A program made the position numbers and the translations under genes. From Ferrimonas sp. YFM (GTDB taxonomy: Bacteria > Pseudomonadota > Gammaproteobacteria > Enterobacterales > Shewanellaceae), in NCBI RefSeq assembly GCF_030296015.1, contig NZ_AP027368.1, forward strand, positions 434,001-498,000: a stretch of 64,000 nt of DNA, read 5' to 3'. The notes under the pieces are model-generated. The model did no database searches and had not been told where the DNA came from. It saw only the letters and a program-made list of their open reading frames with translations. Positions within the stretch are counted from its first letter, which is position 1. Each line of letters begins with the position of its first letter. Positions 2,998-12,012 of the stretch are shown piece by piece.

Positions 2998-3848
2998 GTG
3001 CGGTACTTCAGTGTCTGTGGTTTTAGCCGGAGCCCGAGCAGGAAAGCCACTGGACCCCGGCGTGCGCCGGGGAGACGATTGTGCGTGTGGAGGGGGAACA
3101 CTTCGTTGCTACGTTTGTTTGAAGCTGCAGGTTCGCAGAGAGCCTGAATTCAACCCATGCGGCTCCCCTTAGCACCGTCATTGTGGCGAACGCCGCAATC
3201 CAGTGTCTGTGGTTTTCGGCGGAGCCCGAGCGGGAAAGCCACTGGACCCCGGCGTGCGCCGGGGAGGCGGGAGAGGGGTGTCATTGTGGCGAACGCCGCA
3301 ATCCAGTGTCTGTGGTTTTAGGTGGACCTGAGCAGGAAAGCCACTGGGCCCCGGCGTGCGCCGGGGAGACGATTGTGCGATAGGGTGGGGGAGGCACTCA
3401 GTAGTAACGGGTTGAGGTTGCTGCTGACTCGTCGCCAAGAGGTCTTCTGCCTTTAGTCGCTGCTGCAGGTTCGCAGGGAGTCTGATTCCAACCTATGCAG
3501 CTCCCCTTAGCACCGTCATTGTGGCGAACGCCGCAATCCAGTGTCTGTGGTTTTAGGTGGACCTGAGCAGGAAAGCCACTGGGCCCCGGCGTGCGCCGGG
3601 GAGACGGGAGAGGGGTGTCATTGTGGCGAACGCTGCAATCCAGTGTCTGTGGTTTTCAGCGGGCCCGAGTAGGAAAGCCACTGGGCCCCGGTGTGCGCCG
3701 GGGAGACGATTGTGCAATAGGTTAGGGGAACACTTCGTCGCTGTTTTTAGTTGAAGCTGCAGGTTCTCAAGGAGCCTGAATCCAACCCATGCGGTTTCCC
3801 CTCGCACCGTCATTGTGGCGAACGCCGCAATCCAGCGTCTGTGGTTTT
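2998..3848 (+). repeat. Dispersed REP-like repeat block 1 (five hairpin units)
   Basis: Five head-to-tail imperfect units in one orientation. Each carries the module GTCATTGTGGCGAACGCCGC-AATCCAG(T/C)GTCTGTGGTTTT, then GAGCAGGAAAGCCACTGG, then the palindrome CCCCGGCGTGCGCCGGGG (8-bp stem) followed by GAGACGATTGTGCG. Palindromes lie at 3055-3072, 3247-3264, 3349-3366, 3584-3601 and 3686-3703 (the last with one stem change). Longer units add about 100 bases ending in GAAGCTGCAGGTTCGCAG; shorter ones go directly from GGAGAGGGGT to the next module. The same units recur at 9640-10195 and 11566-11947. Short ORFs through them are repeat translations, not genes. They resemble REP/BIME-type intergenic elements. 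Confidence 0.9.
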
Positions 3849-7782: not shown

Positions 7783-8517
7783 CTACCAGATCCCCTTGGC
7801 TTTCACCCGGCTGGCTTTCTCAAGCTGGCTTTCGAGCTGGGCCGGCTCCGGTTCGGAGGCGGCAGTGCCTGGCTGGGCAAGTTGGCCTTTGAGTCCCTTG
7901 AGCTGGGACATCAGTTTCTCCTGGCCCTGCTTCAGTTGCAGCAAAGAGGGGCCAAGGTCCGGCTGGCTGCGCTCGGGCAGGGCATCGAACCTCTCCATCA
8001 GCGTCTGTTGAAACTCCACCAGTTGCGTCAGTTGCCCTTCCAGGGCAGAGAGGGCCGGATCCACTTGGGCCGGTGTGGGGGCGGGGATGGTCGACAACTT
8101 GTGCTCTACCTGTTCCAGCTGGCGGGTCAGGGCGCCGAGATCAGCTCCGGCGTCCGGTTTTGGGGTGGCCATGGCGGTCTTCAGCATGGAGGTGAGCTGT
8201 TGCCACTGGCCATCGGAGAGGGCGCCCTCGCCGGACTGTAGCAGCCCGGCATTGGTCAGACACTGCTGCAGGGCGGCATCCGGATTGGGCTCCCCCAGGC
8301 GGGCGCTGAGCTGCGCCGTCAGTTGGGGGGAGAGCTGGTGCAGGAACAGCCCGCTCAGATACAGATCCCGATGGAAGGCGTTGCGGCGGGCCAGTTGCGC
8401 CTGGCTGTTGCTCTCCAGGCTCTTCTCCCGCTGTTGCCATTGGCGCAGTCGTTCCACCGCATGGCTGTGGTTCTGATGTTGTTCAGGCTCCAGGGTAAAG
8501 CTGCAACGTATGCGCAT
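7783..8517 (-). CDS. ParR-like adaptor, second gene of a ParM operon
   Basis: 244 residues, starting 7 bases after the parM-like stop. The N-terminal ~75 residues have the look of ParR/StbB DNA-binding adaptors: a short basic beta-type start (MRIRCSFTLEPEQ), then a basic helix and a SGLFLHQLSPQLTAQL segment, comparable to the ParR ribbon-helix-helix region. The rest is Gln/Pro/Leu-rich, with predicted coiled-coil stretches (LTRQLEQVEHKLS, LLQLKQGQEKLMSQLKGLKG). It is about twice the length of R1 ParR (117 residues). In type II partition ParR binds the centromere and caps ParM filaments. Assignment rests mainly on its place after parM plus this loose resemblance; it could be an unrelated coiled-coil partner. 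Confidence 0.5.
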   Translation of the reverse strand: MRIRCSFTLEPEQHQNHSHAVERLRQWQQREKSLESNSQAQLARRNAFHRDLYLSGLFLHQLSPQLTAQLSARLGEPNPDAALQQCLTNAGLLQSGEGALSDGQWQQLTSMLKTAMATPKPDAGADLGALTRQLEQVEHKLSTIPAPTPAQVDPALSALEGQLTQLVEFQQTLMERFDALPERSQPDLGPSLLQLKQGQEKLMSQLKGLKGQLAQPGTAASEPEPAQLESQLEKASRVKAKGIW

Positions 8518-8524
8518 ACTGGCC

Positions 8525-9544
8525 TCAGACGGCTTCGGCGGTTTGTGGCTCGGCGGCGTGGTAGCAGCAGATCTCCCGGCTCAGGGCTTCCTGGGGCTCG
8601 GGCACCAGTACAATCTTCTCGCCCAGGCTGGGGTAGGCTTCGCGGATCGCCGGCTCGATGAGGGTGGCGCCACCGCCCACCAGATAGATGCGGTTGGGGT
8701 TGCGGGCGAAGGTTTTGGCCTCGTAAGCCACGGCGCTGCCCAGTTCGGCGATCTTCTCGTCAATCTTGCCCAGCACCCAGTCCAGCTTGGACAGGTCATT
8801 GATGACGTCACCAACAAAATCGCGGTCGTGGCGGCGTTTGATCAGTTCGTTGGCCACCAGATAGCTGGCGTCGCTGTCGGCGGCAGCCAGGGCCTTGCGG
8901 GTGGCGTTGGTGACCATGGATACGCCGATGTCGGCATTGCCGTAGACGGCGGAGACATCGTCAAACTCACCGACGATCACCCCCATGTCCAGGGTGGTGC
9001 CGCCGCAGTCGATCACCAGGGATTTGGTGTACTGGTTGACGCCGGAGTCCATCAGGGTGGTCAGTACCGCAGGCAGGCTCTCCGGCAGCACCTGGACGTC
9101 GACAATCTCGAACAGCTGGCCCTTGTTGAGACTGATCTTCCGCATCAGGTTGGCCTTCTTGCGGGCGATGTTCTCTTCGTTCTTCTGGCAGTCGTCGGCG
9201 TTGTAGTACTCGGTGATGGGCAGGGTTACCAGGATGGAGACCGGGCAGGGCTCGATGCCGGTCTGCAGCAGGGCGTGGTGCACAGACAGCAGGTTCAGGT
9301 CGTCGTACTGGAAGGCCACGTGGGTAGTGGACAGTGCCTTGTCCGAGGTGGCGTCGTAGGTGTACTTGGTGCTGCCCACCTGGTAGTTGAACACCTTCTT
9401 GTCGCTCAGCAGCGCGGCGCTCTTCCACTCCTTACGGAAGGAGTTGGGGGAGGTGATGCTGCGCACCAGACCACCTTCGATCCAGCTGATTTTTACGTTG
9501 GTGGAGCCATCGTCGATGGCGAACTTCATCTTGGCCTGTGGCAT
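8525..9544 (-). CDS. parM: ParM/StbA-type actin-like segregation ATPase
   Basis: 339 residues, clearly like plasmid R1 ParM (320 residues). Shared blocks include the phosphate-1 loop DDGSTN (residues 11-16), SPNSFRKEW, DKKVFNY, VHHALL, TLPITEYY, ENIARKKANL, PESLPA, the phosphate-2 motif DCGGTTLD, and GGGA near the C-terminus. ParM forms ATP-dependent bipolar filaments that push plasmid copies apart. The ATG at 9544 is preceded by AGGAAACC at a good distance; Met6 is an alternative. The following ParR-like gene completes an operon. The location among chromosomal housekeeping genes is unusual for this family. Its cargo and centromere are unknown. Confidence 0.92.
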   Translation of the reverse strand: MPQAKMKFAIDDGSTNVKISWIEGGLVRSITSPNSFRKEWKSAALLSDKKVFNYQVGSTKYTYDATSDKALSTTHVAFQYDDLNLLSVHHALLQTGIEPCPVSILVTLPITEYYNADDCQKNEENIARKKANLMRKISLNKGQLFEIVDVQVLPESLPAVLTTLMDSGVNQYTKSLVIDCGGTTLDMGVIVGEFDDVSAVYGNADIGVSMVTNATRKALAAADSDASYLVANELIKRRHDRDFVGDVINDLSKLDWVLGKIDEKIAELGSAVAYEAKTFARNPNRIYLVGGGATLIEPAIREAYPSLGEKIVLVPEPQEALSREICCYHAAEPQTAEAV

Positions 9545-9561
9545 TGCGGTTTCCTGAAAAT

Positions 9562-9580
9562 TAGCCCACTGGGTGGGCTA
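9562..9580. promoter_or_regulatory. Inverted repeat upstream of parM
   Basis: A perfect 8-bp dyad with a 3-base centre (TAGCCCAC-TGG-GTGGGCTA) lies 18 bases upstream of the parM start codon. A second, looser dyad (CGACAG 9584-9589 / CTGTCG 9613-9618) follows. In R1-type systems the parM promoter overlaps the ParR-bound centromere, so this could be an autoregulatory site. The 11-bp iteron array typical of parC is not seen in the ~95 bases before the repeat block. Confidence 0.4.
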
Positions 9581-9639
9581 GGGCGACAGCTTTTTTCCGG
9601 AACTTTAATTTCCTGTCGAAAATTGTGAGTTTTTGCGGG

Positions 9640-10195
9640 CGGCAGAAGGCCACTGGACCCCGGCGTGCGCCGGGGAGACGATTGTGCGTGTGGCGTGGGG
9701 GAGCACTCCGTCGTAGCTTTGGCTTGAAGCTGCAGTTTCGCAGGGAGTGTATTCATTGCCATGCACCTCCCCTTAGCACTGTCATTGTGGCGAACGCCGC
9801 AATCCAGTGTCTGTGGTTTTAGCCGGAGCCCAAACAGGAAAGCCACTGGCCCCCGGCGTGCGCCGGGGAGACGATTGTGCGTGTGGCGTGGGGGAGCACT
9901 CTGTCGCTGTTTTTACTTGAAGCTGCAGGTTCGCAGGGCACTCAATCAATGCCATGTGGCTCCCCCTCGCACCGTCATTGTGGCGAACGCCGTAATCCAG
10001 TGTCTGTGGTTTTAGCCGGAGCCCAAACAGGAAAGCCACTGAGCCCCGGCGTGCGCCGGGGAGAAGATTGTGCGTGTGGCGTGGGGGAGCACTCTGTCGC
10101 TGTTTTTACTTGAAGCTGCAGGTTCGCAGGGCACTCAATCAATGCCATGTGGCTCCCCCTCGCACCGTCATTGTGGCGAACGCCGCAATCCAGTG
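9640..10195 (+). repeat. Dispersed REP-like repeat block 2 (three units, cut by the IS)
   Basis: Three units of the same family as 2998-3848, in the same orientation, with palindromes at 9658-9675, 9851-9868 and 10044-10061. The units here are longer and more uniform (about 193 bases), with GTGTGGCGTGGGGGAGCACTC and GAAGCTGCAG segments in each. The fourth module starts at about 10167 (GTCATTGTGGCG) and breaks after CCAGTG at 10195, where the IS1111-group element begins. Its expected continuation (TCTGTGGTTTT) appears in diverged form at 11566. The first unit is truncated at its left end. Confidence 0.9.
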
Positions 10196-10278
10196 ATGTG
10201 ATGGACGCCCCCCTACGATACGGCGTCAAATGCGCCAGAATTAAGTTGCGACACATAATTCAGAGAGGAGCATCCATC

Positions 10279-11316
10279 ATGTCTATTAAAGCCATTGGAA
10301 TTGATTTAGCCAAGAGTGTTTTTCAGGTTTGCGTTCTGTTGGAGGATGGCTCCATCCTTTGGAACCGCAAGGTCAAAAGAGAAAAGCTGCTTCACACACT
10401 CCTTGAATTTCCAACGGGTACACTAGTGGCCATGGAGTCTTGTGCTCGCTCTCACTATTGGGGAAGGCAGCTTCAGCAGGCTGGTTACCAGGTGAAGCTC
10501 ATCCCCGCACAACACGTAAAACCCATGGTGTCTGCGCAAAAGAACGATGCCAACGATGCATTGGCCATTTGCGAGGCAGCCTTCCGGCCTAAGCTGCATC
10601 CCGTCCCCATAAAGACCATTGAGCAGCAAGACATTAAGGCTCTGCGTTGCGTCCGGCAGAGAATGGTCGAATACAGAACGGCTCTGGCCTGTCAGATACG
10701 CGGCTTGGCAGGGGAATATGGCGTTAACTTCAGTACCGGGATAAAGCTGCTGAGAAATCAGTTACCCGAATCCGTTGAAGATGGCGATAACGGTCTGAGC
10801 TTTGTCATGCGGGGGCTGTTGCTGCGGATAGAGCGGGAGCTCAAAGCTCTGGATGAGGAAATCAAAGCCATAGAGCAGGAGATTCATCAGCTGTGCAAAC
10901 AGCAGCCGCGCTACCAAATTTTGCAGAGCATTCCGGGGTTCGGCCCCATTGTCGCGGCGGCTTTCGTCAGTGAAGTGGGTGACGGTCGGCAGTTTTCTAA
11001 TGGCCGTCAACTGGCGGCTTGGTGTGGCTTGGTTCCAAAGCAGCACAGCACTGGAGGCAAAACTAGATTGGGCAGCATCACCAAGGCAGGAAACAAGCAA
11101 CTACGAGTGCTGTTAATTCACGGGGCAAGAGCGGTCTTCGCTCATGTGGCCAAACGAGATGACAGGCTGGGGAGATGGCTGAGCAACCTGATAGCGCGTC
11201 GGGGCAAGTGCAAGGCAATCGTGGCCCTGGCCAATAAATTGGCCCGGATTGCCTGGAGCATGACGGTCAGCGGAAACCAATTCGAGTTGACCCACGCTTT
11301 CACAGTTTCTAAATAA
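10279..11316 (+). CDS. IS110/IS1111 family DEDD recombinase (transposase)
   Basis: 345 residues from the ATG at 10279 (GAGAGGAG upstream); the open frame extends further upstream only through repeat sequence. The N-terminal RuvC-like DEDD domain shows D9 (GIDLAKS), E53 (AMESCARS), D90 and D93 (KNDANDALA). The C-terminal Transposase_20 domain has the helix-hairpin-helix-like IPGFGPIVAAAF and the segment around S266 (LGSITKAGNKQLR) that supplies the catalytic serine. These enzymes act with an element-encoded guide RNA that pairs with target and donor DNA. All key residues are intact and the gene is full length, so the element may be active. Confidence 0.95.
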   Translation: MSIKAIGIDLAKSVFQVCVLLEDGSILWNRKVKREKLLHTLLEFPTGTLVAMESCARSHYWGRQLQQAGYQVKLIPAQHVKPMVSAQKNDANDALAICEAAFRPKLHPVPIKTIEQQDIKALRCVRQRMVEYRTALACQIRGLAGEYGVNFSTGIKLLRNQLPESVEDGDNGLSFVMRGLLLRIERELKALDEEIKAIEQEIHQLCKQQPRYQILQSIPGFGPIVAAAFVSEVGDGRQFSNGRQLAAWCGLVPKQHSTGGKTRLGSITKAGNKQLRVLLIHGARAVFAHVAKRDDRLGRWLSNLIARRGKCKAIVALANKLARIAWSMTVSGNQFELTHAFTVSK

Positions 11317-11399
11317 CCACATCCTCCACTCAGAAAGAGGAATAGAGGGTACCAAGCAACCTGAGTTTGCATAGCTTGATGAAAAACGGTTATCCGGCC

Positions 11400-11560
11400 T
11401 GGCAAGAGCCTGACATAAGACCGACAGAGAATGTCGTTCCAGCGTGAAGGTGGCCAGGTTCGGACCACATTGTGGCGCTACCTCTCGAAGGTAATACAGA
11501 CGCCGAATATACGTCCGCAAACCGATCTCATCAATGTCTTGCAACTGCAGGGGCGTCCAT
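11400..11560 (+). ncRNA. Candidate bridge/seek RNA region of the IS1111 element
   Basis: The 3' non-coding end of the IS has no ORF of its own but is structured. A nested stem is visible at 11469-11507: ATT-gt-GGCG (11469-11477) pairs with CGCC-g-AAT (11501-11507) around an inner stem TACCT/AGGTA (11479-11483/11489-11493), leaving an asymmetric internal loop at 11494-11500. The loop region contains ACAGACGC (11497-11503 plus the next base), complementary to GCGTCTGT, which spans the insertion point in intact repeat copies. ATATACGTC occurs both inside (about 11508-11514) and at the right end (11559-11567). These fit target- and donor-type guides, but the exact RNA ends and pairing are inferred. 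Confidence 0.45.
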
Positions 11561-11565
11561 ATACG

Positions 11566-11947
11566 TCTTTGGTTTTTGTCGAAGCCCGAGCAGGAAAGCC
11601 ACTGGGCCCCGGCGTGCGCCGGGGAGACGATTGTGCGTGTGGCGTGGGGGAGCACTCCGTCGCTGTTTTTACTTGAAGCTGCAGGTTCGCAGGGCACTCA
11701 ATCAATGCCTCGCACCGTCATTGTGGCGAACGCCGCAATCCAGCGTCTGTGGTTTTAGCCGGAGCCCAAACAGGAAAGCCACTGGGCCCCGGCGTGCGCC
11801 GGGGAGGCGATGGTGCGTGTGGCGTGGGGGAGCACTCCGTCGTAGCTTTGGCTTGAAGCTGCAGGTTCGCAGGGCACTCAATCAATGCCATGTGGCTCCC
11901 CTTCGCACCGTCATTGTGGCGAACGCCGCAATCCAGCGTCTGTGGTT
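11566..11947 (+). repeat. Dispersed REP-like repeat block 3 (two units)
   Basis: This is the right-hand continuation of the repeat array after the IS. It starts with the diverged half-module at 11566 and holds palindromes CCCCGGCGTGCGCCGGGG at 11607-11624 and 11787-11804, with full modules starting at about 11718 and 11910. It ends in CAGCGTCTGTGGTT just before the valS terminator. Orientation and unit length match block 2, so blocks 2 and 3 were one array before the IS inserted. Confidence 0.9.
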
Positions 11948-11966
11948 GTAGAGGGGTGAAAACAAT

Positions 11967-11995
11967 AAAAAAGCCACCGCTTAGGGTGGCTTTTC
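11967..11995 (-). terminator. Rho-independent terminator after valS
   Basis: GCCACC (11973-11978) pairs with GGTGGC (11985-11990) around a 6-base loop. On the minus strand the stem is followed by a T run (AAAAAA at 11967-11972 on the plus strand). It also has TTTT on the plus side, so it may work in both directions. Confidence 0.85.
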
Positions 11996-12012
11996 TGTTT
12001 TCAGGCTAGAGC

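Follow-up and report, generated by a model that had tools for sequence, protein, structure and literature searches.

A predicted two-loop guide RNA in the 3' end of an IS1111-group insertion sequence of Ferrimonas sp. YFM, with signs of a changed core dinucleotide

Introduction

Elements of the IS1111 group produce an RNA that is bound by the recombinase, is needed for both circle formation and insertion, and is thought to be made from a promoter at the circle junction, as described in the text of PMC11187229. In IS621, pairing takes place through two loops that share a core, according to the texts of PMC11208160 and PMC11208158. The same two texts already record natural core diversity, the first base of the core being less conserved, and describe IS621 cores changed by engineering.

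Here, we examined an element in a 64,000-nt stretch of the genome of Ferrimonas sp. YFM (contig NZ_AP027368.1, positions 434,001 to 498,000; hereafter the window, in whose numbering all coordinates are given). The kind of system, an IS1111 guide RNA, is already known. We consider it probable (roughly 0.8) that the element belongs to the IS1111 group and carries in its 3' end the sequence of a guide RNA with two loops, of the type known as seekRNA or bridge RNA. As in the IS1111 seekRNAs of ISEc11, ISPa11 and ISKpn4 described in the text of PMC11187229, the predicted RNA lies in the 3' non-coding region, with its match to the top strand of the target 5' of its match to the bottom strand, both matches being short. 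The elements also share 11-bp subterminal repeats with extensions of 7 and 3 bp, and promoter-like hexamers at the predicted circle junction may form a promoter there alone, as in the published elements. The target is another one, and whereas the published RNAs are described in that text as matching the target only, a second loop that matches the element's ends is proposed here from sequence alone.

The predicted RNA resembles the IS621 bridge RNA, as presented in PMC11208160 and PMC11208158, in having a target loop and a donor loop with a two-base core within the guides. It departs from the IS621 arrangement, in which the RNA lies in the left end and the left guide is 5' of the right guide in each loop: here the RNA is in the right end and the guide order is reversed in both loops. 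Unlike in IS621, the left-donor guide follows the right flank, and the donor guide lies in a multi-branched loop, a feature that many IS1111 elements have according to the text on bridge RNAs.

Results

An intact IS1111-group element in an intergenic repeat

The element occupies 10194-11563 on the + strand (1370 bp; Table 1), with its right end at 11563 rather than 11565 and a non-coding stretch starting at 11317. The earlier note had claimed an intact IS1111-group element, and this was borne out by the open reading frame, the IS110 domain matches and the ends common to all copies. The 345-aa recombinase has the length (330–350 aa), DEDD/RuvC domain and C-terminal S/T-G motif (GLVPKQHSTGG) of IS1111-group proteins; a GL-P----STG motif and a KNDAND acidic pair are visible in its sequence. 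It matched the DEDD_Tnp_IS110 and Transposase_20 domains, the NCBIfam entry 'IS110 family RNA-guided transposase', and PDB chains of ISCro4 (E 5.7e-16) and IS621 (E 1e-14), to which the N-terminal DEDD part aligned weakly. The nearest named element met was ISSba8 of Shewanella, whose recombinase is ~60% identical. A search for ISEc11 as a positive control did not find it, giving partial matches only, two of which were inspected and had no annotated IS110-family gene. Other features typical of the IS1111 group were present, namely subterminal inverted repeats of 11–13 bp with extensions of 7 bp (left) and 3 bp (right), and a long non-coding region downstream of the recombinase gene (11317-11563).

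Table 1. Coordinates of the element, its flank and the predicted guide RNA (all on the + strand).
Feature	Position	Basis
Left-end extension TGATGTG, opening with the element's own core TG	10194..10200	Same in 7/7 copies
Left subterminal inverted repeat ATGGACGCCCC	10201..10211	Perfect 11-bp inverted repeat with 11550-11560
DEDD recombinase gene, 345 aa, open	10279..11316	ORF, domain and structure matches
Predicted guide RNA, ~164 nt, ends approximate	11363..11526	Alignment A1, consensus fold, covariance model R1 (146.1 bits)
UGAUG, letters as at left-end start; pairs with 11468-11472 inside the RNA	11377..11381	Helix 2, 98.5% of cells paired
Target-loop stem, 5' strand (partner 11453-11459)	11397..11403	Helix 4, 6/6 pairs with changes on both sides
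Putative right-target guide CATAAGACCG	11414..11423	Position by covariation in relatives; five contiguous bases fit here
Hairpin between the two target guides	11423..11435	Single-sequence fold; by eye in relatives
Putative left-target guide TTCCAG + core CG	11437..11444	Covariation in relatives
Target-loop stem, 3' strand	11453..11459	Consensus fold
Putative right-donor guide CCACATTG, complementary to left end, partly by wobble	11465..11472	Covariation with left end
Conserved stem GGCG/CGCC and apical stem; 3' strand includes ACAGACGC	11474..11504	Helices 6 and 7; kept in relatives with unrelated targets
Putative left-donor guide GAATATACGTCC, letters as right end ATATA + core + right flank	11505..11516	Comparison with ends and flanks
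TTGCAA, -35-like half of predicted circle-junction promoter with TATGAT	11539..11544	Spacing in relatives
Right subterminal inverted repeat GGGGCGTCCAT	11550..11560	Perfect 11 bp, partner 10201-10211
Right-end extension ATA	11561..11563	Comparison of seven copies
Right flank of target, CGTCTTT	11564..11570	Copies compared; free sites also listed

Seven copies of the element are present in the genome, all with the same ends: TGATGTG-ATGGACGCCCC on the left in 7/7 (two copies being one C shorter after the repeat) and GGGGCGTCCAT-ATA on the right. Over the aligned part of the non-coding end two copies are identical and five stand at 96%, with recombinases at 100% and 97%. The copies are flanked by CCAG on the left and, on the right, by C (six copies) or A (one), then GTCTTT. 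The element has inserted at the end of an intergenic repeat that matches 60 places in the genome. GTCTTT is the sequence at each of the seven insertions and GTCTGT at none; TCTTT accounts for only 55 of 134 CCAGNGTCTNT sites, yet every insertion is at TCTTT.

In the window, the element sits inside a tandem array (9583-11951) of a GC-rich palindromic intergenic repeat, with five copies of ~240 nt in register, spaced at 193 nt on the left side. Such palindromic repeats also hold, or lie next to, several copies of other IS1111 elements. Beside the array, on the - strand of what is a chromosome (7783-9544), lie a gene for a ParM-like plasmid segregation actin (StbA_N, E 1e-60) and a weakly StbB-like gene (Plasmid_stab_B, under the family cut-off).

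A predicted RNA of conserved structure in the 3' end

Of the protein and DNA searches for relatives, one yielded 74 loci, its nearest named matches being to F. kyonanensis (91% over 53–76 residues) and F. sediminicola (79%), and the others had matches in 19/394, 32/394 and 22/369 genomes and in 6/14 of the genus. Ends were located for 90 elements, leaving out duplicates, matches that ended before residue 280 and those without a right end, and 43 non-coding regions were aligned beside their flanks. The consensus fold of 26 sequences (alignment A1) has 31 pairs, with consensus pairing in 97.9% of cells compared to 89.3% in shuffled alignments and two-sided changes in 76 cells compared to 19.5; none of 500 shuffles reached either value, and the covariation signal collapsed once partners were slid. 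Folded alone, the window's RNA took a similar, modestly stable structure (z -1.81; 8/200 shuffles as good). The nested stem that had been described at ~11469-11507 was present in both the single-sequence and the consensus fold, and conserved structure and the covariance model back the earlier proposal of a guide-type RNA in the 3' non-coding end.

Covariance model R1 matched all 40 loci searched at E ≤ 0.05, and 38 of these at ≤ 3.3e-6, a rate far above chance, with the window itself part of the training set. It also found the RNA outside that set, for instance in eight IS1111 copies elsewhere in this genome (E 1.5e-6). An Rfam search of 9500-12010 gave only two sub-threshold Phe_leader matches.

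The eight further IS1111-type copies (at L034, L035, L036, L037, L038 and L039) encode a recombinase 36% identical to that of the window. Their left-target guide, CGTTC, fits the left flank in the palindromic repeat at L034 and L037, and with one mismatch at L038. From these matches, two unrelated IS1111 lineages in this genome appear to use different points of similar repeats.

Guide-target covariation locates two predicted target guides

Guides were placed by comparing relatives inserted in different targets, as the bases that change with the target. An anchor was present in 53 of 97 elements; the near group held 48 with the full RNA in 24 clusters, giving 23 representatives (one was without right flank), 19 of them with a left flank. 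Right-target guides were the complement of the right flank, for example TTGACCA for TGGTCAA, ATTAAGCAACA for TGTTGCTTAAT and TTTTGGACA for TGTCCAAAA, and left-target guides had the letters of the left flank (TGTAG, GGCTT, CTTTG, GTGGG, TGTTG and GGAAA). When each cluster was counted once, the right-target score was 6.70 compared to 4.44 in shuffled pairings (n = 23; 0/5000) and left-target identity was 4.63 of 5 compared to 2.34 (n = 19; 0/5000); these permutations treat related elements as independent and so overstate independence.

A more distant group, found with the model, gave the same picture (right-target 6.05 vs. 3.57, left-target 4.70 vs. 3.23; n = 20, 0/5000 each). Its input was 35 model hits, with L067, L068, L069, L073, L075, L103, L109, L195, L198 and one of two L034 hits left aside; L188 was kept though absent at the model-search cut-off, and dropping L105, L096 and L155 left 20 of 21 clusters. 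These results place the predicted target guides at 11414-11423 and 11437-11444.

The fit is not uniform. In the window's own right-target guide only five contiguous bases fit, and TCTTA would be preferred; four of 23 cluster representatives (L050, L055, L122 and L200) scored ≤ 4, and by eye L077 fits neither guide. L200, the nearest relative with a TG core (one site known, the same as that of L089), sits at TGTCTGT, a site not predicted by its own right-target guide. The misfits between flank and right-target guide in L077, L055 and L200 are possibly off-target insertions or recently changed guides.

The internal-loop bases lie mostly in a conserved stem

The earlier note had proposed ACAGACGC (11496-11503), in an internal loop, as the target guide, complementary to GCGTCTGT across the insertion point. 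GCGTCTGT occurs at 3835, 8001, 11743 and 11936; the element's actual right flank is CGTCTTTGG, with one mismatch to the proposed pairing, and of the four uninterrupted sites nearest the element two carry GTGTCTGT. Conserved structure and covariation instead put the target guides ~50–80 nt upstream, in the other loop. Most of ACAGACGC belongs to a conserved stem, on its 3' strand, and is paired within the RNA; a loop that differed between targets had been expected, and GACG[C/T]C recurs in relatives whose targets are unrelated, with variation in the bases that precede it. Its fit to the target carried no information in permutations, at 3.48 vs. 3.38 in shuffled pairings for the near group (1503/5000 as good) and 3.30 vs. 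3.37 for the distant group (3431/5000). We therefore rejected it as a guide. That it nonetheless guides targeting is highly improbable. In favour, GCGTCTGT, its complement, is present at two of the four uninterrupted sites closest to the element, the actual insertion site is complementary to it at 7/8 bases, L200 is inserted at TGTCTGT, and a looser local score was marginal in the near group (255/5000); against stand its conservation whatever the target, the permutations and the seven of seven insertions at TCTTT. No covariation of GACGCC with the inverted repeat was seen by eye; the right-end repeat of L063 is GGTGTCC and its RNA still has GACGCC.

A further match pointed out earlier, that of ATATACGTC within the RNA to the right end, was found at 11507 and 11559. 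It proved meaningful, as the letters are those of the right end, the core and the first bases of the right flank, and we read it as the left-donor guide.

A proposed second loop and its matches to the ends

Two segments of the second loop, 11465-11472 and 11505-11516, correspond to the ends of the element. Its predicted right-donor guide followed the left end at base 6 in 38/40 clusters and at base 7 in 18/40 (0/5000 each; L127 was dropped), and its core did not follow the left-end core in these 40 clusters (1775/5000 and 2896/5000). In the predicted left-donor guide, ATATA matches the right end, and the core equals that of the right flank in 35/40 clusters (22.0 expected, 0/5000) and that of the left end in 20/40 (16.8 expected, 147/5000). 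Bases 3 and 4 of this guide followed the right flank in the nearer group (0 and 1 of 5000), but on a tree of 26 proteins base 3 of the right flank and of the guide changed only four times each, jointly four times. In the distant group the signal was weak at base 3 (9/20, 341/5000) and absent at base 4 (4/20, 3595/5000).

A conserved UGAUG close to the 5' end of the RNA (11377-11381) has the letters of the left end and pairs internally with the right-donor guide, which may therefore be masked until it is displaced. This internal pairing, and the failure of the right-donor core to follow the left-end core, are also what one would expect if only the first loop guides, as in a short seekRNA, and the second were a folding or protein-binding part whose resemblance to the ends is a relic or has some other role. 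An 82-nt RNA supports transposition of ISEc11 according to the text of PMC11187229, and the second loop may therefore be dispensable. We regard this explanation as rather unlikely, given that left-end bases 6 and 7 are followed across clusters and that the left-donor core follows the right flank so widely.

The core differs between the guides and the left end

The core is CG in the left-target and left-donor guides of the window's lineage and TG in its near relatives, and the lineage's own left end is still TG in 7/7 copies. The other two guides of the window copy have G opposite the first core base; in a related genome (L199 of G762) the right-donor guide has A there. The two bottom-strand guides of L200 carry TG, with G already in place in its other guides, and L200 is possibly a wobble intermediate. 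L047, a homologous element from Shewanella, resembles the window's in the type of its ends and RNA and is inserted at TGTAG/TGGTCAA with core TG, compared to CG in the window's lineage.

Across clusters, the cores of the two loops agreed in 30 of 36 (18.4 expected, 0/5000). The representative of each cluster was whichever member matched best at the left target, a choice that favours the left-target guide, and four of 40 clusters (L107, L188, L053 and L061) were dropped for their left-target core; the discordant clusters include L091 and L174, the latter kept as such although its guide was probably misplaced by the script. The first base of the left-end core agreed with that of the left-donor-guide core in 31/36, the window's lineage being one of the five exceptions, and the second core base of that guide was the right flank's in 36/36 and the left end's in 22/36. 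On a tree of the 36 clusters, the target-guide core changed 10 times, the donor-guide core 7 times and the joint state 11 times, so that at most 6 of the 7 changes coincide. Among relatives of the distant group (L180, L173, L178, L164 and those of TAATGG type), the left end often has TA or CA and the right flank TG or CG, with the first core base shared and the second different.

The right-flank core itself appears to come from the target, judging by the copy near 421 kb, which has AG, as do three free sites 1.4–1.8 kb off. Six of the seven copies have CG, and the 55 free TCTTT sites have CG (12), TG (25), AG (12) or GG (6). Of the six copies that carry these CG guides in two related genomes, three have TG in the right flank.

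Taken as a comparison of sequences, these patterns suggest concerted natural core switching. It may instead be, and we rate this too as a tentative account, that CG arose by drift in the guides, that a one-base core mismatch is tolerated and that the right-flank base reflects only the target that was hit. The TG flanks in the two related genomes and the AG copy in the window's genome fit drift well; the excess of CG among the copies over the free TCTTT sites, in copies that are not fully independent, and the agreement between loop cores do not.

A predicted promoter at the circle junction

No promoter was predicted on the + strand within 11280-11620, and one was on the - strand. A TTG hexamer precedes TATGAT at a distance of 17 bases in 30/36 elements and is off by one base in five more; none was found in L051. 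A junction promoter TTGCAA-17-TATGAT would favour a left end that stays fixed at TG.

Discussion

We propose that excision joins the ends of the element, so that the promoter TTGCAA-17-TATGAT would form and transcribe the recombinase gene and the RNA. Of the guides in the first loop, the left-target one (TTCCAG + CG) would match the bottom strand of CCAG/YGTCTTT and the right-target one (AAGAC + core) its top strand, while the second loop would match the element's own ends, for which covariation is seen with the left end and the core. The recombinase would then join ends and target at the two-base core, as is known from relatives. By analogy with those relatives, the window's element would act in the same way, its second loop would be used, and the left-donor guide would serve the integrated junction.

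A further-reaching proposal, which we advance tentatively and hold to be short of probable, is that the core of IS1111 elements has switched in nature in both loops together. The left-donor guide would be fitted to the integrated junction (right end, core and right flank) rather than to the circle, as a bottom-strand counterpart of the handshake guides of IS621, and the window's lineage would have been caught part-way, with CG in its guides and TG at its left end, so that target and donor cores need not be identical. In the article texts searched, no report was found of concerted natural core switching, or of a donor guide that tracks the right flank, in IS1111.

The analysis replaces a tentative reading with a located guide map whose base pairs can be tested, and its covariance model recognises the RNA in diverse IS1111 elements. 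If true, core switching and junction reading would show how natural elements change their cores, and would bear on a point that the text of the IS621 structure paper calls unclear, namely whether a single complex carries out excision as well as insertion, and in what way.
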